DNA from: Bacteriovorax sp. Seq25_V | Lineage (GTDB): Bacteria > Bdellovibrionota > Bacteriovoracia > Bacteriovoracales > Bacteriovoracaceae | DNA: 64,000 nucleotides | Direction of reading: 5' to 3' | Assembly: GCF_000447795.1 (NCBI RefSeq) | Contig: NZ_AUNI01000009.1 | Location: forward strand, 62,001 to 126,000 | Part shown: piece after piece, positions 15,655 through 30,640 of the stretch | Layout: every line of letters starts with the position of its first letter | How positions within the stretch are numbered: position 1 is the stretch's first letter | Position numbers and translations under genes: made by a program | The notes under the pieces: model-generated | The model's input: only the letters and a program-made list of their open reading frames with translations | What the model was told of the DNA's origin: nothing | Database searches by the model: none

Positions 15655-16782
15655 GTGGCCGAAAGTTTTTTAGACAAACTTAAAGATAAAATAGCACCGA
15701 TAAAAGAAAAGATTCCGTTTCTGGCTAAAACTAATGATGATGATTATGAAGATGAAGATGAAGATGAAGATGAAGAAACTGAATTTGATGGGTCATCTGA
15801 GGATGCAACCGGGCAATTCGAAATAAATAAAGAACTTCTTGAAGAAGCTACAAATCCTCAATATAAGCCCGAAGACTCTGAGGCTTCTGAAGAAGACGAA
15901 GAAGACGAAGAGGACGAAGAGGACGAAGAGGACGAAGAGGATGACGAAGACGAAGATGAGGATGATGAAGAAGTAGAAAATGCAAAAAAGAAAAAGAAAA
16001 TCATTTATGGCATCGTGATTCTTGCATTAGTCTACATGGCCGCTGATGAATTTATGAAAGCTGGTGAAGAACCCATTCCTGAACCTGTGCCAATTGTACG
16101 TAAGAATAAAAAAAATAAAGTAAAGCAAAAGCCAGCTGTTGATCAAGCTACAAATCAAAATGAAGCCGCAGTTGTTGAAACTAGAGTAAAAACTCCTGTT
16201 CAAGAGGAGCAGGCTAAAACAGAAGTCGTTGAAGCAAAAAACGAGATATCTGAACAAGTCGCTGTAGCACCCACAGTTTCTGATGAGCCTGAAGCTAATG
16301 AAGAGATTAAAGTTCCTGAAGAACCTAAAGAAGAAGCTCCAATTCAGGTTGTTGAAGAACCTAATTTAGGTGAGCTTAACTTTGATAGCACAGCAGAAGT
16401 TCAAGAAGTAAAAGATGATAAAAATCAGCTTAATAATGAACTTGATGAAAATAGTGGAGCAAATAACTTAGACAGTCAATTAACTGCCATTATTCAAAAG
16501 GTCGAAGATGATAGTCAAAAAGAACAAGAAAAGCTTGAGTATGTAGAACCACCAAACTATGAAAACTTTGGTGAATCTTTAGTTTACAATTGTAAAGGGC
16601 GTCACTGGGCTTGTGTGAATAAAGAAGCTCATTTTCAATGTATGAAAAACTATAAGTGGGCAAAGAGTACGGGGAAGACACCAGAGTGTTCGAACTTTAA
16701 AGTTCTTGCGACTGCGAAAGATTGTCGACTGCTTCAGTTGTATAATATTAATATGGTTGTTGAGATACCTGACTGTAAATAA
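15655..16782 (+). CDS. Single-span membrane protein with poly-acidic region and Cys-rich C-terminus
   Basis: The start is GTG at 15655, supported by GGGAGG five bases upstream. Residues 1-105 are cytoplasmic by prediction and dominated by Asp/Glu runs. A Lys-rich patch (AKKKKK) then leads into one membrane helix (about 117-135, IIYGIVILALVYMA). A long Pro/Glu/Val/Lys linker follows, ending in a small C-terminal domain (about 315-375) with five or six cysteines (NCKGRHWACVN, QCMKN, ECSN, DCRLL, DC). Topology is therefore acidic inside, Cys domain in the periplasm. I know no family for it. The linker looks like an extended periplasm-spanning arm as in TonB-like proteins, but no TonB domain is recognisable. 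Confidence 0.65.
   Translation: MAESFLDKLKDKIAPIKEKIPFLAKTNDDDYEDEDEDEDEETEFDGSSEDATGQFEINKELLEEATNPQYKPEDSEASEEDEEDEEDEEDEEDEEDDEDEDEDDEEVENAKKKKKIIYGIVILALVYMAADEFMKAGEEPIPEPVPIVRKNKKNKVKQKPAVDQATNQNEAAVVETRVKTPVQEEQAKTEVVEAKNEISEQVAVAPTVSDEPEANEEIKVPEEPKEEAPIQVVEEPNLGELNFDSTAEVQEVKDDKNQLNNELDENSGANNLDSQLTAIIQKVEDDSQKEQEKLEYVEPPNYENFGESLVYNCKGRHWACVNKEAHFQCMKNYKWAKSTGKTPECSNFKVLATAKDCRLLQLYNINMVVEIPDCK
15895..15939 (+). repeat. 9-bp tandem repeat (GACGAAGAG)x5 in coding sequence
   Basis: Five head-to-tail 9-base units (GACGAAGAA once, then GACGAAGAG four times) encode Asp-Glu-Glu. A GATGAA hexamer tract lies near 15746-15774. Changes in unit number would keep the frame and change only the length of the acidic arm. 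Confidence 0.85.
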
Positions 16783-16872: not shown

Positions 16873-19659
16873 ATGCATGATAAATCGTCTCCTATAGTAA
16901 AAGAATTTTTACTGGAGTCTTTTGAAAATCTCTCAAATATCAATGAGGAGTTAACACATTTTGAAAAAAATAGTGGTGACTCTGAATTACTCAATTCAAT
17001 TTATCGTAAAGTTCACACATTGAAGGGAAGTGCTAGCTTTCTCGGCCTTAAAGTTCTTCAGCACATTACGCATCTAAGTGAAAATATTTTAGATAAAATT
17101 CGTGAGCAACAACTAAGTGCAGACAGTACTACAGTAGATGTTCTGCTAGAGAGTTTTGATGCGTGCATTGTAATTTTAAATTCAATTGAAAGTACAGGTG
17201 ATGAAGGAAGTGAAACTTTTGATAAGTTACTCGAAAAGTTAGAGCGATTGGATTCGGGCGAAGCTGTTGAAATTGAAGATGATATAATAATTAATGATGA
17301 AGATAATCATGAAATCGATCTTAGTTTTAAAGAGAAGAAATTTGATGAAGATTTGATGTCATCATTAAATGAATTAGAAGATAAGATATTTGCAAAGCCC
17401 GTAAATGCAAAAAACGATATCGAAGAGAAAAAATCATCAGATGTTTTAAAGCTTAGAGAGGAAAAAGTACCAGTAGAAGATACTGTTAAAAATATTGATG
17501 AAGTAGCACCTGGGAAAAATTCAAAATTAAGGGATAAAATTGAATTGCTAAAGAATGAACTATTCAAGAAAAATGAAGTGGAAGTTCAAGACGTAGAAGG
17601 GGCCAAGGTAGAAATTTCAGAGTCTAAAGGAAATCTTGTCGATTCAGTTGTGAGAGTAAATGTTGCTCTTCTTGACAAGATTATGAATGTTGTTGGTGAA
17701 CTTGTCCTAAATCGAAATCAAATCCTACAGTGTGCAAATCAAGATACATCGCCAGAATTAAGCCGTCTTGCTCATCAGTTAAATGCAATCACGACTGAAC
17801 TTCAAACTGATATCATGACAACTCGTATGCAACCTGTAGGATCTGTACTCAGTAAATTTGAGCGCGTTGTACGTGATATATCAAGACAACAAGAAAAGTC
17901 GATTAAGCTAAATATAACGGGTAAAGAAACTGAACTTGATAAAACACTTCTCGAAGCAATACGTGATCCACTTACTCACTTAGTGAGAAATGCTGTGGAT
18001 CACGGAATAGAAAAGCCTGAAAGTCGAGTCGCGAATGGTAAGCCAGAAATTGGTACAATAAATATTCGCGCCTATCATGAAGGAGGACAGGTTACTATTG
18101 AAATTAGTGATGATGGAAATGGTATTGATCCTGAGAAAATTCTCAATAAAGCAATAGCGAAGGGTATATTGAGTAAAGAAAAAGCAGAGCGATTAAGTAA
18201 AAAACAAATTCTAAATATCATATTCTCTCCAGGTTTCTCGACAGCGGAAGCAGTAACTAACATTTCTGGTCGTGGTGTTGGGATGGATGTCGTAAAATCG
18301 AATATTGAAAAGATTGGTGGGTCTGTTGATATTCACTCTAATGTTGGAGAAGGAACTATTTTCAAGTTGAAAATTCCTCTAACTTTGGCAATCGTCCCTG
18401 CTTTAGTTGTAGAAAGTGCCAATGAAACATTTGCTATTCCTCAAATCAGTTTAGTTGAATTAGTGAGAATTGAAGAAGGTGAAGATAAAAAAATTGAACT
18501 TATCCATGAAAGTGAATTTTTTAGACTAAGAGGTGATTTAATACCTGTGTTTAGATTAAATCATTGTCTAAATCTTGAAAGTGATAAAGAGCTTTCGGGA
18601 GATATTAATATTGTTATATTAAATGCTGAAGGACACACATACGGCCTAATTGTTGATCAAGTACTTGATACTGAAGAGATCGTTGTAAAGCCATTAAGTA
18701 AAGAATTGAAAGAACTTTCAATCTATGGTGGTGCTACAATAATGGGGGATGGATCAGTTTCATTGATTATTGATGCTCTAGGATTCTTCAATACTGTTGG
18801 CCGTGTTTCGAATCAAAAGAAAATTGATGGAACTGAAAAAGCTGGTGAAAAACTAGTCGTTTATAATGATGAAATCTTGCTTTGTACGCTTGAAGATCGA
18901 AGAGAATATGGCATCCCATTAATGCTCGTTAATCGTTTGGAGGAATTTAAGCGAGAACAGGTAGAGTGGAGTGGAAACAGTCCATTAGTGAGATATCGAA
19001 ATAAAGCAATGCCTCTAATCTCTTTAGAGAAAATATTAGGCATAAAGACTCCATCTATTCTCGATGGTACCACTGAAACTATTCCTGCAGTCGTAGTATC
19101 TGTAAGAGGGCATCAGATTGCTTTTGCAGTTTCTGAAATTAAAGATATTGCAATCAATCAAGGGCCAATATCCACTGAGACTGCAGATCGTGATGAATTT
19201 GTTGGTACAGCTTTCATTAATGAGAAAACAATAACAATCCTTGATCTCTTTAACATAATTGATTCTTTACCGCTGAAACAAGTTAAAAAAGAAAAAACCC
19301 ATGGGAATATCTTAGTTGTTGAAGATTCACAATTGTATTTAAGAGTTCAAAAAGAGCTATATACAGAGGCTGGATATGCTGTATGTACAGCAATGAATGG
19401 AAGTGAAGCTCTCTCGATATTAGACACAGAAAAGATAGATGTCATTGTTACTGACATTGATATGCCTATAATGACAGGGTGGGAAATGATCAGGAAGCTT
19501 AAAGGTAATACTAAGTACGTAGATATCCCCGTGATCGCTGTTTCATCGATTGTAAGCAAGAAGCGAGAGGAGATTACTAGAGCAGGTTTTGATTTCTGTT
19601 TTGATAAGCAACAGAATGGGGAAGCGTTAAAAATTGTAAATAAATTAATGGAGTTATAA
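16873..19659 (+). CDS. cheA: Hybrid CheA: HPt - kinase - CheW - CheW - receiver
   Basis: The 928-aa histidine kinase starts the chemosensory operon. HPt domain: about 1-105 with phospho-acceptor H48 in KVHTLKGSAS. An acidic linker replaces a clear P2 domain. Dimerisation helices begin near 258. The ATPase domain has the N box HLVRNAVDHG (about 369), DDGNGID (about 413) and GRGVGMD (about 466). Two CheW-like domains follow (about 510-650 and 665-790). A receiver domain ends the protein (about 810-928, phospho-Asp D861 in IVTDIDMP). Signals from the soluble receptor should control transfer from H48 to CheY, CheB or its own receiver, which may act as a phosphate sink. The ATG has only a weak ribosome site. 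Its stop overlaps the cheW ATG. Confidence 0.93.
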   Translation: MHDKSSPIVKEFLLESFENLSNINEELTHFEKNSGDSELLNSIYRKVHTLKGSASFLGLKVLQHITHLSENILDKIREQQLSADSTTVDVLLESFDACIVILNSIESTGDEGSETFDKLLEKLERLDSGEAVEIEDDIIINDEDNHEIDLSFKEKKFDEDLMSSLNELEDKIFAKPVNAKNDIEEKKSSDVLKLREEKVPVEDTVKNIDEVAPGKNSKLRDKIELLKNELFKKNEVEVQDVEGAKVEISESKGNLVDSVVRVNVALLDKIMNVVGELVLNRNQILQCANQDTSPELSRLAHQLNAITTELQTDIMTTRMQPVGSVLSKFERVVRDISRQQEKSIKLNITGKETELDKTLLEAIRDPLTHLVRNAVDHGIEKPESRVANGKPEIGTINIRAYHEGGQVTIEISDDGNGIDPEKILNKAIAKGILSKEKAERLSKKQILNIIFSPGFSTAEAVTNISGRGVGMDVVKSNIEKIGGSVDIHSNVGEGTIFKLKIPLTLAIVPALVVESANETFAIPQISLVELVRIEEGEDKKIELIHESEFFRLRGDLIPVFRLNHCLNLESDKELSGDINIVILNAEGHTYGLIVDQVLDTEEIVVKPLSKELKELSIYGGATIMGDGSVSLIIDALGFFNTVGRVSNQKKIDGTEKAGEKLVVYNDEILLCTLEDRREYGIPLMLVNRLEEFKREQVEWSGNSPLVRYRNKAMPLISLEKILGIKTPSILDGTTETIPAVVVSVRGHQIAFAVSEIKDIAINQGPISTETADRDEFVGTAFINEKTITILDLFNIIDSLPLKQVKKEKTHGNILVVEDSQLYLRVQKELYTEAGYAVCTAMNGSEALSILDTEKIDVIVTDIDMPIMTGWEMIRKLKGNTKYVDIPVIAVSSIVSKKREEITRAGFDFCFDKQQNGEALKIVNKLMEL

Positions 19660-20122: not shown

Positions 20123-21661
20123 ATGACGAACGAAAATTTAGGCACAGATTTAAAAATTGATTTTCAACAAATGATTGAAATGTCTCCAATTAACACGATG
20201 GTAGCCAACAAAGAAGGAATTCTTCTTTACATGAACTCTAAGTCTAAAGAGACGCTCAGAGAACTTGAACAGTATCTACCTGATAAGGTAGACAATCTTT
20301 TTAATAAAAGTATTGACTGGTTTCATAAAAACCCTGCCGTGCAGAAAAAAATTATTTCAAGTGCCAGTAATTTACCTCACAGAGCAATCATCTCTGTTGG
20401 ACCTGAGAAATTAGACCTTCTTGTATCACCTCTTAGAGACTCTGATGGAGAATATCTTGGGCCGATGGTAACGTGGGAAGTTGTTACTGAAAAGTTAAAA
20501 ATAGAAGAGGAAGTCGCAAGAACAAAGCAGATGGTTGATAAATCACCAATTAACACAATGATGGCGACACCTGAAGGGAAATTGATTTATATCAATGAGG
20601 CAGCTATTAACACGTTAAGAAAGCTTCAATCTCTTCTGCCTGATAAGGTCGAAAAACTTCAAGGTCAAAGTATTGATATTTTTCATAAGAACCCTGAGTT
20701 TCAAAGGAAAATTATTGGTGATCCTTCAAACCTTCCGCATAATGCAATCATTGGGCTAGGGCCTGAGAAGTTAGATCTTCTTATATCACCGATTTTCGAT
20801 TTAGACGGAAAATACCTCGGACCGATGGTAACGTGGAATGTTGTAACGACTAAGTTTGAGCTTATTAACGATCTTTCAAAAAGTGCAGATGACCTACAAA
20901 ACTCTGCGGAAAGTCTTTTAACACTATCTTCATCTCTAAGTGCTGGAGCTGAAGAAACTTCTGCTCAGGCCAATACCGCGAGTTCTGCTTCAGAAGAAAT
21001 TAATGCTGGTGTTCAAACTGTTGCAAGTAATATGGAAGAAATGGTTGCAGCAATTAAAGAAATTACGAAAACGACAAATGAAGCATCTTCACTTTCTAAC
21101 GATGCGATGAAGATGGCTAAGTCTACAAATCAAATCATCGGACAGTTAGGTGATAGTAGTATGGATATCGGAAATGTTATTAAAGTTATTTCTTCTATTG
21201 CTCAACAGACTAACCTTCTTGCCTTGAATGCTACGATTGAAGCGGCAAGAGCTGGTGAAGCTGGAAAAGGTTTCGCAGTTGTTGCAAACGAAGTAAAAGA
21301 ACTAGCAAAGCAAACCGCTAAAGCAACAAATGATATTACGAAGAAAATTGAAACAATTCAGAATGACTCTAAAAATGCCGTTTCTGCAATTGGTGAAATT
21401 TCTGAAGCAATTGAAAAGATCAATGGATATGCCGGTAATATCGCAGCATCTGTTGAAGAGCAGGCAGCAACAACAAATGAAGTAACGAGAATTGTTACTG
21501 AAGCTGCAGAGGGTGTAAAACAAATTAATGAAAATATTGGCCAGGTATCAGAAGCGGCTTCAGTTACTGGTAAAGATGCATCGAATACTCAAGATGCAGC
21601 TAAAAACTTAGGTAGCATTGCAGCTGGATTGAAAGCTCATGTTGCCAAGTTAAATGTATAG
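20123..21661 (+). CDS. Soluble methyl-accepting chemotaxis protein with twin PAS domains
   Basis: The 512-aa receptor has no membrane helix. Two PAS-like domains repeat almost exactly (about 10-125 and 135-245): both contain SPINTM, LPDKV, the FHKNP block, NLPH-AI and GPEKLDLL, ending GPMVTW-VVT. The rest (about 255-512) is a coiled-coil signalling domain with the conserved hairpin tip around [26 protein letters not shown]. The sensor would read a cytoplasmic or redox cue; no heme- or flavin-binding residue can be assigned with confidence. No HAMP domain is seen. It is the only receptor in the cluster and should organise a cytoplasmic array with CheW and the CheA hybrids. An AAAGGGG ribosome site precedes the ATG. 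Confidence 0.92.
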
Positions 21662-21667
21662 GTTAGT

Positions 21668-22711
21668 ATGAATATTTTAGTCGTTGATGACTCAGTAGTA
21701 TTTAGAACAGCGATAAGCCAGGCCCTAAGTGAGGTGCCTGGTTTTCTCGTTTCAAAGACATGTAGTAATGGTAAAATTGCTATCGATTTTTTACAAAGAG
21801 AGAGTGGGATTGATCTTGTTATCTTAGATCTGGAAATGCCTGTAATGGATGGTATCGAAACGATTAAGGAAATAAGGAAATTCAATAAAAAAATCCCTAT
21901 AATTGTTTTTTCTTCGTTTACAACACAAGGTGCAGAGAAAACAATAACAGCACTTCAGACTGGCGCAAATGACTTTGTTGGAAAAGTGAGTGGCAATGGG
22001 ACAATAGAAGGATCTTTAAAAATGATTCGAGCTGAGCTGGTGCCGCGCATTGAAGCTCTATGTAGTAAAGGTAAGGCAAGCAATGTTTCACAAACAAAAG
22101 AAGTAGTTTGTGAAATATCTAAAGCTGTAGATAAAATGCAAATAAAACCCAAGTTAATTTGTATCGGATCCTCGACTGGTGGTCCAGAAGCATTAATGTC
22201 AATTTTTAAAACTCTTGAAGTACCATCGAGTGTACCAATGTTACTTGTTCAGCATATGCCTCCTATGTTTACACAGAAGTTGGCTGAAATGTTAGATAAG
22301 AATTCATGCATGAGCTTTTCTGAAGCAAAAAATGGAGACGTTTTAAAACCAGGGCATTGTTATATTGCACCTGGAGATTATCATATGACTATCACGAAAG
22401 ATTTAAAAATAATCTTAAATCAGGATGATAAAGTTTGTTTTGTCCGACCTTCTGTAGATGTTTTATTAAACTCTGTTGCTGATAATTTTTCGGGACAAGT
22501 TCTTTCAATTATATTAACTGGAATGGGTGAAGATGGCGCAAATGGTTCACGTGCTTTGAAAGAAAAGAATGCATATCAGTTTACACAAGATAAAGAATCG
22601 TGTGTTGTTTGGGGGATGCCTGGAGCTGTTATGAAAGCAGATGTTGGAGCTTCTGTGATTAAGCTTGCTGATATACCTAAATTATTAACAATGGTTTCAA
22701 AAAGAATATGA
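21668..22711 (+). CDS. cheB: CheB protein-glutamate methylesterase
   Basis: The 347-aa protein has an N-terminal receiver domain with acidic residues VVDDS and phospho-Asp D54 in ILDLEMPVMDG. After a linker comes the methylesterase domain with the catalytic Ser169 in GSSTGGPEA, the His in QHMPP and the Asp in LTGMGEDGA, forming the usual Ser-His-Asp triad. It removes methyl groups from, and can deamidate, receptor glutamates when phosphorylated by CheA. It pairs with the CheR three genes downstream. Its stop overlaps the ATG of the next gene (ATGA). Confidence 0.93.
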   Translation: MNILVVDDSVVFRTAISQALSEVPGFLVSKTCSNGKIAIDFLQRESGIDLVILDLEMPVMDGIETIKEIRKFNKKIPIIVFSSFTTQGAEKTITALQTGANDFVGKVSGNGTIEGSLKMIRAELVPRIEALCSKGKASNVSQTKEVVCEISKAVDKMQIKPKLICIGSSTGGPEALMSIFKTLEVPSSVPMLLVQHMPPMFTQKLAEMLDKNSCMSFSEAKNGDVLKPGHCYIAPGDYHMTITKDLKIILNQDDKVCFVRPSVDVLLNSVADNFSGQVLSIILTGMGEDGANGSRALKEKNAYQFTQDKESCVVWGMPGAVMKADVGASVIKLADIPKLLTMVSKRI

Positions 22712-23886
22712 GTAAAAATATTTTAAAGAATATAATTGAACACAAATTACTTGATAGAACATTTATTGCGAAGGCAATCAGTATGCAAGTACGTGAAAGC
22801 GTTTCACTTGCACAAGTAGCTGTAGAGAATAATCTGTTAGGAGATGACGAATTGATTAAGTTGTCTATTGTGTCTATGGATAAAGGAACAGATTTATCAA
22901 GTTGTTTGAAAAATAACTTTCCGGACATTTATAAGAGGGCAGTCGAAATAAAAAGAACTGGTACTAGAGGACTATTCACAATTATGCAGGACGAAGGTTT
23001 TGTCTCAACTGCAGATATTAAGAATGCGATTGAAAAAGCCTCTACGCTACAAGAAAACTCTGATTCGAATCATGAAAAAAATGACGATGAGATTGAACTA
23101 AGCCCTGCTGCCCTTGAATCTCTTCGTGAGCTTCAAGGAGATAATTTTAGTCTCGATGAACCAGAGTCTCGTGAGGTTGAACTTAGTCCTGCGGCGCTCG
23201 AATCATTACGCGAACTTCAAGGTGAAAATTTTTCTTTTGATGCCAAGAGTGATTCAGATACTGACAAAGTCGAAATTAGTGAAGCAGCACTTGATTCGCT
23301 TCGTGAACTTCAGGGGGATCGTGCTGTAGATGTCTTTGTGCAAGATGAAGAGCTCGACGTTACCGTAGAAATAAACGAAGCAGCTCTTGAGTCATTAAGA
23401 GAGTTAGGCGGCATGAGTGAGGAGGATATTTCTTCTCTTATACCACAGCCTAAGATTCAAAGTAAGTCTAACGATCTCGTAGATCTATTTGATGAAAAAA
23501 AACGAAATAAAATTCTCAAAATAATGAAAATGATAGATGAAGCTTGTGACAAAAAAGATGACGCTACTAATTACCTCAATTCCCTATATCGAGAAATTCA
23601 TGTTGTTTCAACAGCGGCTAAAAATGTCGAGGCAAAATTTTTATATAGATTATTAGATTTGTGGGAACACGTAATTGATCGTCTGTTTAATTCAACACCA
23701 GAGAAAGTTTATAATGTATGTGAGTCAGATTTTAAAAATCTGTATGATGCTATAGATCTTTGTTGGGAAGTTAGAGAGAACGAACTGAGTTCTAATGAAA
23801 TAGAATTCTTCAAGAATGAGGGCGTTAGAGCTAATTATCTCAACCAAATAAATATTTTAAAGAAAATACTAGGCAATATAAATTAG
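22708..23886 (+). CDS. Novel chemotaxis-cluster protein: four-fold repeat motif and cryptic HPt-like domain
   Basis: I know no named family for the full protein (392 aa). Residues 1-115 are helical and loosely resemble MshEN/GspE N-terminal modules. Residues 128-235 carry four copies of a 17-residue acidic helix motif, E-[IV]-E-[LI]-S-x-A-A-L-[ED]-S-L-R-E-L-[QG]-G, at 28-32-residue spacing, starting at 128, 156, 187 and 219. The C-terminal part (about 280-390) aligns with the HPt of the first CheA in this operon: LNSLYREIH against LNSIYRKVH, with His298 at the phospho-acceptor position. The usual TLKGSA after the His is replaced by VVSTAA. It overlaps cheB by 4 bases. Likely a scaffold or adaptor of the chemosensory complex; phosphorylation of His298 is uncertain. 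Confidence 0.75.
   Translation: MSKNILKNIIEHKLLDRTFIAKAISMQVRESVSLAQVAVENNLLGDDELIKLSIVSMDKGTDLSSCLKNNFPDIYKRAVEIKRTGTRGLFTIMQDEGFVSTADIKNAIEKASTLQENSDSNHEKNDDEIELSPAALESLRELQGDNFSLDEPESREVELSPAALESLRELQGENFSFDAKSDSDTDKVEISEAALDSLRELQGDRAVDVFVQDEELDVTVEINEAALESLRELGGMSEEDISSLIPQPKIQSKSNDLVDLFDEKKRNKILKIMKMIDEACDKKDDATNYLNSLYREIHVVSTAAKNVEAKFLYRLLDLWEHVIDRLFNSTPEKVYNVCESDFKNLYDAIDLCWEVRENELSSNEIEFFKNEGVRANYLNQINILKKILGNIN
23089..23412 (+). repeat. Four copies of a 17-aa coding repeat
   Basis: Copies begin at 23089, 23173, 23266 and 23362. They agree strongly as protein (S-x-A-A-L-E-S-L-R-E-L-Q-G) but differ at many synonymous positions. That is the mark of an old duplication held by selection on the peptide rather than a recent tandem expansion. 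Confidence 0.85.
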
Positions 23887-23895
23887 AGGTTTTTA

Positions 23896-24258
23896 ATGAA
23901 AATTATGATCGTAGATGATTCAAAAGCAATTTACATGATGGTTTCTGGTATGCTGACAGAGCGCGGGCATCAGGCTGTTTGGGCCGAAGATGGAGTTGAT
24001 GCTTGTGAGAAACTTAAGACAGAGAAAGTTGACCTTATCTTACTCGATTGGAATATGCCAAATATGTCTGGTCCAGAGTTTCTAGAAAAGAACCAGGCTG
24101 AGAATATTACTGAAGTTCCGATAGTTATGATGACTACAGAAAATAAGCCTGACTTCATTAAGAAGGCTCTTCAGCTTGGAGCAGTGGAATATATCATGAA
24201 GCCTTTTACTAGTGATATTTTGTTCAACAAAATAGAGCTGGTGTTTGATCTTGAATAA
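23896..24258 (+). CDS. cheY: CheY-like single-domain response regulator
   Basis: The 120-aa protein is a lone receiver domain: IVDDS acidic pocket at the N-terminus, phospho-Asp D51 in LLDWNMPNMSG, the Thr in MMTTE and Lys in MKPF. It should take phosphate from the CheA hybrids and signal to the flagellar or another motility motor, although a role as phosphate sink is also possible. An AGAGG ribosome site sits before the ATG. The following cheR starts inside its 3' end. Confidence 0.92.
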   Translation: MKIMIVDDSKAIYMMVSGMLTERGHQAVWAEDGVDACEKLKTEKVDLILLDWNMPNMSGPEFLEKNQAENITEVPIVMMTTENKPDFIKKALQLGAVEYIMKPFTSDILFNKIELVFDLE

Positions 24259-25021
24259 TTTTATTTTTTTCAAAAAAATAGTTCATAAGTATTTAGGTGT
24301 TGATTTAGAAATGTCTGATGAGACACGAAATATTGGAAAAATGAATAATTTTTTAAAAAGTTTGAATATAACAAACAACCTTGAAGAATATTATCGGGCA
24401 CTGACAACAGACGAAGAAAAAGAAGAATTTAAAAAAAATCTCATTGATATAGTTACAATTAATGAGACTTCCTTTTTTAGAGATAAAATTCCATTTGAAT
24501 ATATAAGATCTCTCCTAGATGGTAAAACGAAACTAGATGTTTTATCTATTCCTTGCAGTTTTGGGCAAGAGGTTTATTCCTTGGCAATTCTCTTTGAAGA
24601 AAATAATTTTAAGAGTTACCAGATTTATGGAGTAGATATTAGCTCTGAAGTTGTTGATTATGCTCGACGTGGTCAATATAATACTTTTGAAATTTCGCGT
24701 GGGATTTCTGAAGACATGCAAAATAAATACTTCATCAAGGATGAGAAGAAGTTCGATGTTTCACCAAAGATTCGCAGTAAGGTCAGCTTTTCTGTTGGGA
24801 GTGTACTAGATAGAAACGTGTTCATAAACTCAGTAGACTTAATACTGTGTCGAAATCTTCTTATATATTTTAATGATAAAACTCGAGAAACTGTCATTTT
24901 AAACCTTCTTAACTCCTTGAAAAAAGGTGGGAAGCTAATCTTAGGTGGAGGAGAGCGCGTGAGCCACCCAAGTCTTCTGGTAGAATACTATTCAGGTATG
25001 CCTGTCTACACAAAAATTTAA
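24245..25021 (+). CDS. cheR: CheR protein-glutamate O-methyltransferase
   Basis: The protein (258 aa from TTG at 24245) has the CheR order. A small N-terminal helical part is followed by NETSFFRD (about 77-84), then the SAM-binding loop PCSFGQEVYSLAI, the acidic YGVDISSEV, and LILCRNLLIYF near 205. It uses S-adenosylmethionine to methylate receptor glutamates, opposing CheB. The usual GEEPYS loop reads GQEVYS here, an unusual but conservative variant. Two TTG starts (24245 and 24251) are possible; both overlap cheY by 8-14 bases, so translation is coupled. No ATG is in place. Confidence 0.88.
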   Translation: MILNNFIFFKKIVHKYLGVDLEMSDETRNIGKMNNFLKSLNITNNLEEYYRALTTDEEKEEFKKNLIDIVTINETSFFRDKIPFEYIRSLLDGKTKLDVLSIPCSFGQEVYSLAILFEENNFKSYQIYGVDISSEVVDYARRGQYNTFEISRGISEDMQNKYFIKDEKKFDVSPKIRSKVSFSVGSVLDRNVFINSVDLILCRNLLIYFNDKTRETVILNLLNSLKKGGKLILGGGERVSHPSLLVEYYSGMPVYTKI

Positions 25022-25071
25022 ATTAATAATAAGAATATAAATAAAAAATCCGAAAAGCCTAGAGAGTAGAG

Positions 25072-26001
25072 GTGTATGTGGATTTAGCAGAATTAAAAGA
25101 AAATTTTATACTAGAAGCAGAAGACTTACTAGAAGATGCTGAAGATGCATTACTAAGTGTCGGAAAATCTGAATATTCAGGATTATTTAATCGAATCTTT
25201 CGTTCTTTTCATAGTTTAAAAGGCGCTGCTGGTATGTTTGGTTTTGTAGATCTACAAGAGCATGTGCATAAGCTTGAGAACTCTCTCGATTCATGTCGTG
25301 AAGCAATGAACGAAGAACGTGTTGATTACTACTTACGTGGGATCGATGCGGTACGTGAATATTTCAGAGATGGGACAATATCTTTCAAAGAGCAAGTTAC
25401 AAGAGAAGAAGTTAAAGTTGATATAAAAGAAAAGAGACAAGTCCAGGAAGAAAAAAAAGTATCTACTCCTCACAAAAGTAGCGGCTATATTTATGTTGTC
25501 GATGATGAAAAAATAATTGTCGAACTAATCTCTTCACAGCTTATAAGTTCAGGCTTCACTGTTAAGTCATTTTATGATGGGGCAGAGTTACTTGAGGAAA
25601 TCTCAAGTGAACATCTCCCTGATGTTATTGTTTCAGATATTAATATGCCAAAAGTAAATGGTATAGAGATGGCCAAGAAACTTGCAGAGAGAGGAATCGC
25701 AATTCCAATTGTATATGTATCTGCTTATGTAACACTTGATATTGTTCTATCAGGTCTTAAGAGTAGAATGTGCTACTTCATTGAGAAACCATATGACGAA
25801 AAGGTTTTAATTTCTATTGTTACCTCTCTTGCCGATAATTCTAAATTAAAAAAATCGTTAATGAAAACATGTGATCGTATTATGTTCATGTTCTCAAATC
25901 ATGAAAACTTCTTATTAGAGTCTGGTCATGAGAAAGAAGCAAGTGCACTAAGATATGAGATTGAAAATTTACTTGATCTAAAAAAGTCTATTACAAAATA
26001 G
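25072..26001 (+). CDS. HPt-receiver signalling protein
   Basis: The 309-aa protein joins an HPt domain (about 1-105, phospho-acceptor H47 in SFHSLKGAAG) by a charged linker to a receiver domain (about 140-260, VVDDEK pocket, phospho-Asp D189 in VSDINMP, EKPYDE at the end) and a short helical tail. It has no kinase domain, so it probably relays phosphate between the two CheA hybrids or their receivers and CheY. Starts GTG 25072 and GTG 25078 both fit AGAG/GAGG ribosome sites. It lies 9 bases before the second cheA. Confidence 0.88.
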   Translation: MYVDLAELKENFILEAEDLLEDAEDALLSVGKSEYSGLFNRIFRSFHSLKGAAGMFGFVDLQEHVHKLENSLDSCREAMNEERVDYYLRGIDAVREYFRDGTISFKEQVTREEVKVDIKEKRQVQEEKKVSTPHKSSGYIYVVDDEKIIVELISSQLISSGFTVKSFYDGAELLEEISSEHLPDVIVSDINMPKVNGIEMAKKLAERGIAIPIVYVSAYVTLDIVLSGLKSRMCYFIEKPYDEKVLISIVTSLADNSKLKKSLMKTCDRIMFMFSNHENFLLESGHEKEASALRYEIENLLDLKKSITK

Positions 26002-26010
26002 AGGATACCA

Positions 26011-28572
26011 ATGAAAGAATTTGAAATTATTTGCATTGATGATGAAAAAGAGATTCTCGATATTTATGAGCTAGAGCTTGCTAAGTGTGGCTGTACCATT
26101 AAGTCATTTGTAAAGCCTGATCTTGCTTATGAATACATTATTGAAAATGCGAAGAAAATTGTTCTTATCGTAAGTGACTATAAAATGCCTGAGATGACAG
26201 GGCTTGAACTGCGTAAAATGTTAAATGCAAATGACGTCATGATTCCTTTTTTGATGGTGACTGGTTTCTATAGTAAAGAAATGGCCCTGGAGGGGATGGA
26301 ACTTAAGATATCAAAGTTTATTAATAAGCCCTTTCGCTCCGACGAACTAAGTGCTGTTGCCTCAGCAGAGCTTGATCAATATCTACGAGTTCTTAATGAA
26401 GAGCGTGAGATGATTAAATCTTTTGTTGAAGAATCATCTCCAATGCTTGAGGAAATCGAAGATTTAATTCTAGTTTTAGAAGAAGAACCTCATAATTTAA
26501 ATGCTCTTAATACATATTTTAGATTGCTCCACACAATTAAGGGAACAGCCTCTTGTGTTGGTTTAAAAACATTACCCGAATTTGCCCATAAATATGAAGA
26601 CCTAATTGGTTCTTTGAAGAATGGAGATATTCAAGTAAATGATCTTGTTATAAATACATTTTTAAAAGGACTAGATGTCTTAAAAAGAATGTATTCAAGC
26701 ATTGCAAATGATGGTGCTTTCGAATTTGACATTCAGGAAGACTTAAAAATATTCAACACTGATTTTAAAAATTTAGAACAAAGTAAAAATCAATCTCAGA
26801 CAGAGGTTAAAGAAGTCGAAGTTGTCGATAATAAGGCACAAAGTACTTCAAAAGATACAAATGAAAAAATAAATGTTCAGGTCTCAATTCTTGACAACTT
26901 CATGGAACTATCAGGGGAAATGACAGTTCTTAGAAATATGATCGTTAAAAGTGTCTCTAAAATTGAGCAGAGATATCAAAATGACAAAGATGTAGATGTC
27001 CTTTCTGACTCATTGGATGAAATGCACAAGGTATCATCAATTTTACAAAATCAGATTTCCGAAATGAGAAAAATTTCAGTTGAAAGTATTTATCGCCCAT
27101 TGAAAAGAATTGTAAGAGATGCTTCTAAAAAGCTTAAGAAAGAAGTTAATATTGAATTTGAGGGAGAAGAACTTAAAGTCGACACTTCAATCGCTAAAAT
27201 ACTAAATGGTGTGCTAATTCATCTTCTACGAAATGGGGTAGATCATGGTATTGAATTACCCGAGACAAGGACGACAGCAGGTAAGCAAGCAGAAGGTAAT
27301 ATCTTACTCTCGACGGTCATAGACGGTGAAAATATTCTTGTTACAATTTCTGATGATGGTAACGGAATGAATCCTGATAAATTAAAAGCTAAAGCAATTG
27401 AAAATGGTCTTTTTACAAAAGAGCAGCTTGATAAAATGTCGGAACAACGAATTTTCTCTCTGATTTTTGAGTCTGGATTTAGTACAGCTGGTGAGGTTAC
27501 AGACATCTCTGGTCGTGGTGTTGGAATGGATATGGTTCGAAGCTCTGTCGAGGCAATTGGCGGAAAAATTGTCGTTGAATCAAAGTATGGCGAAGGATCG
27601 AAGTTTATTCTTGTTCTTCCTGTTCCAAGATCTGTACTAATTATTAAATCTTTAATGGTTGGAGTATCTGGAAATCAATTTGCGGTACCACTACAAGATA
27701 TTGATGAAGTCGTAAGCTTAGATGATGACAAGATTTTATCTGAACTCAGAGAAATCGATGGGGCACAAGTGCTTTGCCATCACGGCCGTTTGATACCGTT
27801 AATAAATCTTCATGACAGATTTCACCCAGGGGCTATGTCTGATAGATCTTTGCAAAATGTGATCGTTATAGATACCGAAGGTATGCATTTTGGATTACTT
27901 GTTGATGAAGTATTTGATATCGAGGAAGTTGTACTTAAAAAGTTTTCAGGACATTTGCAGTCGGACACATCTCTTTTTCAAGGAGCAACCCTAATAGGTG
28001 ACGGAGATATCGCACTGATACTTGATCTTGAGAATATCGCTCATTCTAGTAATATCGTGAATAGTGTTGAGGAAGATTATATTACTACAACTAAAAATAA
28101 TATTGAGCCTGTCGAATATCTTCAATTCTCACTTGAAGATCAAAGATCATCATATGCAGTTAGTTTGAGTATGGTTGACAGACTTGAAGAGTTTGCAATG
28201 AGTGATATAGAGTATACTGGTAATAATATGATTATTAGATATCGTGACAGTTTTCTACCTCTAGTGAATTTAGAATCAGTTCTTTATCAAAAAGAAGCAA
28301 TACTCGCTGAAGACTGTGACATTGTTTGTATTGTTGTCAACTTAGAAGGGCAGAAACTGGGATTACTTGTTAATCGCATTGGTGATATTGCTAATGTATA
28401 TGAGACTCTTGATGATACCTTTTATAATGGCTCGGGAATTTTAGGAACTGTGTTCATTAATGAGAAGACAGTAAATGTATTGGATTTAGAGTTTGTAGTG
28501 AAATCTAGAGCTAAGTCTAGGCATCAAGTTAAGGATGATTCTCATCATGAAGATTTTGAAACCGCTGCATAA
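26011..28572 (+). CDS. cheA: Second hybrid CheA: receiver - HPt - kinase - CheW - CheW
   Basis: The 853-aa kinase has the parts of the first CheA, with the receiver moved to the front: receiver about 1-125 (phospho-Asp D56 in IVSDYKMPEMTG), HPt about 130-245 (H174 in LLHTIKGTAS), dimerisation about 285-360, ATPase domain with HLLRNGVDHG (about 403), DDGNGMN and GRGVGMD, then two CheW-like domains (about 535-680 and 690-835). A GAGGAT ribosome site precedes the ATG, and the operon ends at a strong terminator. The second CheW-like domain parallels that of the first CheA (SxxDRLEEF and VNRLEEF). Having two kinases suggests either two outputs or a mixed-array kinase. Confidence 0.93.
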   Translation: MKEFEIICIDDEKEILDIYELELAKCGCTIKSFVKPDLAYEYIIENAKKIVLIVSDYKMPEMTGLELRKMLNANDVMIPFLMVTGFYSKEMALEGMELKISKFINKPFRSDELSAVASAELDQYLRVLNEEREMIKSFVEESSPMLEEIEDLILVLEEEPHNLNALNTYFRLLHTIKGTASCVGLKTLPEFAHKYEDLIGSLKNGDIQVNDLVINTFLKGLDVLKRMYSSIANDGAFEFDIQEDLKIFNTDFKNLEQSKNQSQTEVKEVEVVDNKAQSTSKDTNEKINVQVSILDNFMELSGEMTVLRNMIVKSVSKIEQRYQNDKDVDVLSDSLDEMHKVSSILQNQISEMRKISVESIYRPLKRIVRDASKKLKKEVNIEFEGEELKVDTSIAKILNGVLIHLLRNGVDHGIELPETRTTAGKQAEGNILLSTVIDGENILVTISDDGNGMNPDKLKAKAIENGLFTKEQLDKMSEQRIFSLIFESGFSTAGEVTDISGRGVGMDMVRSSVEAIGGKIVVESKYGEGSKFILVLPVPRSVLIIKSLMVGVSGNQFAVPLQDIDEVVSLDDDKILSELREIDGAQVLCHHGRLIPLINLHDRFHPGAMSDRSLQNVIVIDTEGMHFGLLVDEVFDIEEVVLKKFSGHLQSDTSLFQGATLIGDGDIALILDLENIAHSSNIVNSVEEDYITTTKNNIEPVEYLQFSLEDQRSSYAVSLSMVDRLEEFAMSDIEYTGNNMIIRYRDSFLPLVNLESVLYQKEAILAEDCDIVCIVVNLEGQKLGLLVNRIGDIANVYETLDDTFYNGSGILGTVFINEKTVNVLDLEFVVKSRAKSRHQVKDDSHHEDFETAA

Positions 28573-29539: not shown

Positions 29540-30640
29540 ATGGAAGTTGAAATTCTGACCCAGGATGGAACAGAATCTAATATAGCGTATTTTGAATCAT
29601 TATTTTTTAATCTTCACGGTCGTGATGTTGAGTTTGTTAAGGTGGATAGCTTTAGTGCAGATAAAATAAAATTAATAAGTTTAGAATCTTTTAATGAGTT
29701 AAGTGACAAGCGTAAGATTTCTCGCTTCTTCATTTTCTATTATTCTTCAAAAATTAGTAGTAAGCAAGTTGATGAGCTTAATACTCTTGGAAAGACAACT
29801 CCAGAATGTCTTGGTATTTTTGATCTTGATCTCGATTATGGCCTTTATGCTCCATTTGTAGATAATTTTTTATCTCAAATGAGCTTATTAGATTCCCAGA
29901 AATCAATTTTGAAAAAGCTTAATGGAGTTATACAAACAATTCTTGGGCAACTACAAAGAGTAAAAGGAATACATGATAAGATGGTTCCTGTTCGCAGTGA
30001 AGTGATTAGGGGAGTGAGTATAAACTCTCGCTTCTGTGCAGGTACCTCATCTGGTGGTGAGTTTTTCGATTTCTTTAAGTCGGGATCAAAAATTTGGCTT
30101 TTTTCTTTGAATGCTAGCTCTTACATTACTATCGCTTCATTTCTGAGTTTGATTGATACTTGGAAAAGTCAAAGTGAGCTTACTTCTGAATTTGTAAGAC
30201 AGAGTCTTGAGTCAGCAAGAAAAGAATTTGAAGGCTTAGGGGATGTATCACTTCTTGTTCTGTCTGTTGATCTTGGTACATTTAAGATGACAAGTTTTAA
30301 TCTTGGACAGCATGATATTATTTCAAAAGATAAGGTCGTTATCGCTCGTAATGATAATACTTTTCCTTCTAAGTGTGCTGAGTACAAAGAGAGTTCTTAT
30401 CAACTTACTAGAGGAGAGCAGATTGTAATTCTTTCACCAGGTTTTTATAAAAACACAGCTGATTCGATTGACTCTCAAACAAGTTTTAATTTTTTAAAAA
30501 ATAATTGGTCAACAGGAACAGACCTTATTCAAGAACTAACTTTTCAGACAAAGAAAAAGTATAATGATCTTGATTTTCTTCCTTATGATCAAACAATTTT
30601 TACAATTGGAGTTGATAAAAATGTCATTACTAAAGTTTAG
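29540..30640 (+). CDS. SpoIIE/RsbU-like PP2C domain protein, probably inactive
   Basis: Residues 1-125 are of unknown type with some receiver-like alternation. Residues about 150-366 follow the SpoIIE/RsbU phosphatase order: GTSSGGEFFDFF in place of AGGDFYDFF, IWLFSLNASSYITIAS in place of the D-x-S-G-H-G helix start, LLVLSVDLGTFKMTSFNLGQHDII in place of the strand leading to AGHNP, and IVILSPGFYK in place of LYTDGV. The metal-binding Asp residues expected at three of these places are absent, so it is likely a pseudophosphatase acting by binding. The assignment rests on motif spacing only. It diverges from the HD-GYP gene. Confidence 0.5.
   Translation: MEVEILTQDGTESNIAYFESLFFNLHGRDVEFVKVDSFSADKIKLISLESFNELSDKRKISRFFIFYYSSKISSKQVDELNTLGKTTPECLGIFDLDLDYGLYAPFVDNFLSQMSLLDSQKSILKKLNGVIQTILGQLQRVKGIHDKMVPVRSEVIRGVSINSRFCAGTSSGGEFFDFFKSGSKIWLFSLNASSYITIASFLSLIDTWKSQSELTSEFVRQSLESARKEFEGLGDVSLLVLSVDLGTFKMTSFNLGQHDIISKDKVVIARNDNTFPSKCAEYKESSYQLTRGEQIVILSPGFYKNTADSIDSQTSFNFLKNNWSTGTDLIQELTFQTKKKYNDLDFLPYDQTIFTIGVDKNVITKV

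Follow-up and report, generated by a model that had tools for sequence, protein, structure and literature searches.

A candidate trans-acting docking scaffold for a chemosensory kinase, encoded between cheB and cheY in Bacteriovorax

Introduction

How does a chemosensory kinase that lacks a P2 domain find its response regulators? More than half of CheAs have no P2, the domain to which CheY and CheB dock, and in AlphaFold models a disordered linker takes its place (PMC10782961). This question is raised by a chemosensory operon in a 64,000-nucleotide stretch of the genome of Bacteriovorax sp. Seq25_V (contig NZ_AUNI01000009.1, positions 62,001 to 126,000), the whole of which is referred to here as the window. 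The linker between P1 and P3 in the operon's first kinase, CheA1, gave no P2 match in Pfam, and a gene for a 392-aa protein lies between cheB and cheY. An initial annotation, made by reading the sequence, proposed that this protein derives from a CheA P1 domain and binds four copies of a partner (CheW, CheY or a receiver) through repeated helices. Here we describe the domains of the protein, its conservation, and the occurrence of its repeats in other proteins of the order.

Results

The 392-aa protein is a conserved component of the chemosensory operon

The coordinates and strand of the open reading frame were as initially annotated (Table 1). Its ATG overlaps the stop codon of cheB by 4 bp, and 9 bp separate its own stop codon from the start of cheY. 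In most family members the operon is arranged cheA1-cheW-(MCP)-cheB-X-cheY-cheR-HPt/receiver-cheA2, where X is the family gene; most relatives preserve the cheB-X-cheY order. Searches of the order and the phylum found the family in Bacteriovorax/Halobacteriovorax and their relatives as well as in further Bdellovibrionota families. Sequence identity to the window protein is 17-31% among the homologues of an 18-row alignment; the contig scan that named family records used a seven-row alignment. Homologues lying outside che loci and lacking both the repeats and the histidine did not turn up in the homologue search. A distant HPt protein that adjoins type II secretion genes in one genome (L125, genome G239) is probably not an orthologue.

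Table 1. Positions in the window of the chemosensory genes and of the parts of the 392-aa protein.
Feature	Position	Strand	Description or basis
cheA1 of the operon	16873..19659	+	HPt, kinase core, CheW domains, receiver
MCP	20123-21661		two PAS-like repeats
cheB, upstream neighbour	21668..22711	+	Pfam CheB_methylest and Response_reg
Candidate docking scaffold, ORF of 392 aa	22708..23886	+	acidic linker bearing four copies of the motif, flanked by an MshEN-like (N-terminal) and a CheA-P1-like (C-terminal) domain
N-terminal MshEN/GSPII-B-like domain, residues 1-121	22708..23070	+	AlphaFold pLDDT 93.6
Motif copy 1, EIELSPAALESLRELQGDNFSL	23089..23154	+	profile match; helix 133-143
Motif copy 2, EVELSPAALESLRELQGENFSF	23173..23238	+	profile match; helix 161-171
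Motif copy 3, KVEISEAALDSLRELQGDRAVD	23266..23331	+	profile match; helix 192-202
Motif copy 4, TVEINEAALESLRELGGMSEEDI	23362..23430	+	profile match; helix 224-232
C-terminal CheA-P1-like (HPt) domain, residues 250-392	23455..23883	+	hhalign against CheA P1; fold match
His298 codon	23599..23601	+	aligns with the CheA P1 phospho-His
cheY, downstream neighbour	23896..24258	+	Pfam Response_reg
Conserved remainder of the operon (cheR, HPt-receiver protein, cheA2)	24245..28572	+	same order in relatives
HPt-receiver protein	25072-26001		
cheA2, second CheA	26011-28572		N-terminal receiver

The protein had been described as unlike any standard Che protein, and our searches agree with this. Pfam and NCBIfam gave nothing convincing for it, and scattered weak matches to PriA-like_WH and FliX were disregarded. 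No Pfam match to H-kinase_dim, HATPase_c or CheW was found that would indicate a kinase core, and a test for a CheV/CheW adaptor likewise gave no CheW or Response_reg match in Pfam. Profiles for CheZ, CheX and CheC from Pfam and NCBIfam did not match the protein either, a result that allows for distant likeness beyond the reach of such profiles. The constituent parts described below (P1, MshEN and a linear docking motif) are known kinds; their architecture and the motif are undescribed, as we found no account of either in our searches of open-access papers or in Pfam/NCBIfam.

The surroundings of the gene have further features. The operon holds four HPt-type domains (in CheA1, the 392-aa protein, CheA2 and the HPt-receiver protein) and several receivers, so that a multi-step phosphorelay is likely. 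Immediately upstream of cheA1, window positions 15655-16782 encode a very acidic 375-aa protein with long Asp/Glu runs and one membrane-like segment, and similar acidic proteins occupy the equivalent place in relatives (e.g. L033:14222-15259). After the operon, positions 29540-30640 encode a 366-aa protein that has no Pfam match at E ≤ 0.01.

The C-terminal domain is predicted to have a CheA P1 fold

AlphaFold modelled residues 250-392 mostly at pLDDT 77-95, and the C-terminal helix bundle for which a structure check had been suggested was predicted, with the fold of CheA P1. The model superposed on P1 of Salmonella CheA (1i5n_D) with Z 16.1 and rmsd 2.2 over 127 aligned residues. Six of the top seven structure matches were CheA P1 entries and one was a designed helical repeat protein (Z 15.7). 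The likeness to P1 lies in the five-helix fold (best matches 1i5n, 2lp4 and 3kyi/3kyj), in the segment LNS-x-YR-x-x-H and in the sequence profile, which hhalign matched to 31 CheA P1 sequences with a probability of 97.4% (E 1.5e-11); each of eight column-shuffled control profiles stayed below 0.5%. The family profile also matched P1 of the operon's own CheA1 (E 4.3e-8). By sequence profile and predicted fold, the C-terminal part is a CheA-P1-type HPt domain, but unlike P1 of CheA it is detached from the kinase core and stands at the C-terminus.

The alignment with the HPt domain of the operon's CheA around LNS-[IL]-YR-x-[VI]-H that had been read from the sequence proved real, and it places His298 on the phospho-His. 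The rest of the active site is partly kept: the equivalent of E70 is present, while K51 is replaced by S, G52 by T and the second catalytic histidine, H67, by D. Across the family the phospho-His is variable. It is present in 14 of 27 homologues and His-Lys-Gly in 9 of 27, and nearly all have lost the second catalytic His. Several relatives (L031, L032, L033, L034, L036, L038 and L041) retain H-x-x-K-G-A-A, and one, which is fused to a receiver, has Arg where P1 has His. Because so few homologues keep the His or the His-Lys-Gly, the HPt looks decaying or pseudo, and with an active site only partly kept, phosphotransfer through H298 appears unlikely.

The N-terminal domain resembles MshEN

In the AlphaFold model, residues 1-121 form four short-long helix pairs. 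The seven best PDB matches were all GSPII-B domains of MshE or PilF (Z 6.5-8.0), and the next, unrelated match scored Z 4.0. In addition, the family profile matched the N-terminus of a real GspE whose gene adjoins a secretin-like gene. Judged by its predicted tandem repeat of helical hairpins, this domain has the MshEN/GSPII-B (GspE N-terminal) fold and belongs with the GspE/MshE N-domain family. The initial proposal that the protein derives from a CheA P1 domain thus stands for its C-terminal third and falls for its N-terminal domain. Six relatives matched DUF4388 (best E 4e-4), probably because of their MshEN-like helices.

Unlike MshEN/T2SSE_N (GSPII-B), the domain occurs in a che operon and not on an ATPase. 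It also departs from the 24-residue c-di-GMP motif of MshEN, RLGxx(L/V/I)(L/V/I)xxG...LxxxLxxQ (PMC5013675): no unit of the window protein fits even a relaxed form of this signature, and a single relative (L042) fits one relaxed unit. Binding of c-di-GMP through the N-terminal domain is therefore unsupported in the window protein.

The linker carries four copies of a conserved helical motif

Between the two domains, residues 122-250 form a linker in which Asp and Glu make up 28% of the residues. AlphaFold gave it low confidence (pLDDT of 27-66 in blocks of ten residues) and placed an isolated helix at each of four repeats. These repeats are copies of a 23-residue helical motif (EIELSPAALESLRELQG and variants) beginning at residues 128, 156, 187 and 219, in exact agreement with the initial claim. 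A motif profile of 23 columns was built from 37 copies, and when the entire genome of the strain was searched with it, each of the four copies matched at E 1e-10 to 5e-9, values that lean favourable because the same rows sit in the alignment behind the profile. A copy with at least 8 of 13 matches arose in 1 of 5000 shuffles of the protein, versus four copies in the real protein. The core A-A-L-E-S-L-x-E is near-invariant over 37-49 copies in two protein contexts, within linkers whose remaining sequence is difficult to align. Conserved and standing alone in an acidic linker, the helices look as docking motifs should, and the earlier suggestion of docking helices is in keeping with this prediction.

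Most relatives have one to three copies within a family range of zero to four, and four are special to the window protein. In some relatives the motif is unrecognisable yet the gene is kept (e.g. G102, G084, G211 and G270); docking through the motif therefore cannot be the sole role of the family. The motif also exists in a longer form, for example xSxAALDSIREQVEAGVLDxSVLxxLE, in which a second short helix-like segment follows the core (L132:7769-9085 in G021, L071:1501-2460 in G056 and L133:5512-8556 in G029).

The same motif occupies the P2 position of CheA kinases

We searched 126 genomes of the order with the profile. Among the loci that were opened, which are part of all matches, convincing matches fell either in the window family or in a CheA, between its HPt domain (with the His near residue 50) and its kinase core; a few genomes also gave weak matches with E above 0.01. 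No third kind of motif-bearing protein was found among the 696 ORFs of the fetched loci. Across 369 genomes of the phylum, matches at E ≤ 1e-5 were restricted to the taxonomic family of the window. The genome of the window itself has the four copies in the 392-aa protein and one in another kinase, CheA3 (P0002, 685 aa, residues 203-225, DVEISESALESLRELG). Because the operon of CheA3 (cheA3-cheW-cheR/receiver-cheB) has no neighbouring cheY, the ligand of the motif may be CheB or another receiver.

The motif-bearing CheAs that were scanned contain HPt, H-kinase_dim, HATPase and CheW domains by Pfam. Neither CheA3 nor CheA1 of G029 and G025 matched the Pfam P2 or CheY-binding models, and the window protein did not match them either. 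In CheA3 and in a clade of CheA1s the motif sits between P1 and P3, which is the position of P2. It may do the equivalent job of the P2/CheY-binding domain from this equivalent place, but it is a linear helical motif of 23 residues rather than a folded domain, is present in one to four copies, and is also supplied in trans.

Our first mechanistic guess was that the motif mimics the N-terminal CheY-binding peptide of FliM (LSQxEVDALL; LSQDEVDALLNAV in this genome). When the motif profile was compared with all windows of the proteins of the region, 272 of 17280 background windows equalled or exceeded the score of this genome's FliM peptide (p about 0.2). As this similarity is no better than chance, mimicry was rejected; both are short N-capped amphipathic helices, a likeness that amounts to a mechanistic analogy only. 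The operon's MCP supplied the best motif-like windows nearby outside the family; they are helices of its PAS segments, and we judged them to be a chance likeness to a folded PAS helix.

In one clade that lacks the family gene, CheA1 carries the motif

In operons with the family gene, the motif was found in 0 of about 22 CheA1 linkers, and the motif scan was likewise negative for CheA1 of the window. In contrast, CheA1 carries the motif in three complete operons that lack the family gene (G029, G025 and G057). It does so too in two operons ended by contig edges (G027 and G125), with one or two copies per CheA1 across the five. A further operon (G024) has neither the gene nor a motif in CheA1. 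Fisher's test of this distribution (0/22 versus 3/4) gave p 0.0015, which overstates independence because the exchange is one evolutionary event. A CheA tree groups the five motif-bearing CheA1s into a single clade (100/99). In G119, the sister of this clade, the family gene is truncated (L189:6796-7299), and its 167-aa product comprises the N-terminal domain and one motif and has lost P1. The motif was thus swapped once, with G119 as a plausible intermediate.

Adjacent genes can fuse without direct binding of their products, and one fusion was found in the family. In G060 (L130:7735-8913, G060:C45), a motif-less family protein is fused to a CheY-type receiver (E 2.5e-21), and this receiver stands between CheB and CheR, replacing the operon's separate cheY. 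It is this relative that has Arg in place of the phospho-His.

Discussion

We consider it about as probable as not (roughly 0.5) that the 392-aa protein acts in trans as a docking scaffold for the operon's chemosensory kinase, with motifs that dock the receiver of CheY and/or CheB. The protein would consist of a P1-type domain detached from CheA and an MshEN-type helical domain on either side of a flexible, acidic, motif-bearing linker. The most likely ligand of the motif is the receiver domain of CheY and/or CheB, because in other CheAs of these bacteria the motif lies between P1 and P3, the place that model CheAs fill with P2, the dock for both. The scaffold would then supply in trans, for a CheA1 with neither a P2 match nor the motif, the docking sites that P2 supplies within other CheAs. 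Several copies may concentrate CheY locally around the kinase or act as a CheY buffer. The P1-like domain would anchor the protein in the complex by binding a receiver or the kinase, a role that we favour in this genome over that of a phosphate carrier because the active site is half kept. Receiver docking is the simplest account of the P2 position, of a motif supplied by either CheA or the scaffold, and of the fusion to a CheY-type receiver in one lineage. Among the partners proposed in the initial annotation, CheY or another receiver fits this pattern best, and nothing specific speaks for CheW.

The most serious alternative, which we think unlikely, is that the motif serves as a tag for localisation or assembly. 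It would bind a hub other than a receiver (a CheW/P5-type coupling surface, a polar landmark or the MshEN-like domain) and keep CheA and the 392-aa protein in the array. Presence of the motif in just two kinds of array-associated protein would suit such a tag, as would the second folded helical domain of the family and the lack of a cheY in the operon of CheA3. However, the motif lies where P2 would be, a relative without the motif is fused to a CheY-type receiver, which suggests a receiver as the partner, and P5/CheW already keep CheA in arrays, which makes an additional tag less necessary.

Two further alternatives start from the C-terminal domain. It is improbable that the protein is a working phosphorelay element or phosphate sink, in which H298 would be phosphorylated by CheA1 or CheA2 (or by back-transfer from a receiver) and the phosphate passed to CheY or drained. 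The P1 fold, the aligned His, the retained E70 equivalent and the intact H-x-x-K-G-A-A of several relatives are consistent with this, but the Lys, Gly and second His are gone from the window protein, the phosphosite has eroded across the family, and the receiver-fused relative has Arg for His. We regard it as still less probable that the protein is a CheY-P phosphatase or decoy, whose helical bundle would bind CheY-P like a pseudo-HPt and speed or block its turnover. A fold kept while its phosphosite decays, a gene adjoining cheY and the fusion in G060 would fit such a role; on the other hand, Pfam gave no link to CheZ, CheX or CheC, a conserved acidic/amide pair was not identified, and the motif in CheA would be left unexplained. 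That the repeats mean nothing specific and arose by chance or recombination in an acidic, helix-prone linker is barely credible: their low-pLDDT, Asp/Glu-rich setting would permit it, but the near-invariant core in two protein contexts already disfavours it.

As a tentative generalisation that we hold at somewhat less than even odds, short linear helical motifs may have replaced the folded P2 as the dock for response regulators in P2-less CheAs, with the dock placed either in CheA or on a separate P1-derived scaffold. There is a real chance that this protein reveals a general substitute for P2, and the same principle may hold elsewhere among the CheAs without that domain. A portable, conserved motif that stands at the P2 spot, is also carried by a detached P1-like scaffold and was exchanged in evolution offers a testable answer to how P2-less kinases find their response regulators. 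With this protein, the chemosensory systems of predators of the Bacteriovorax/Halobacteriovorax type also gain an undescribed component.
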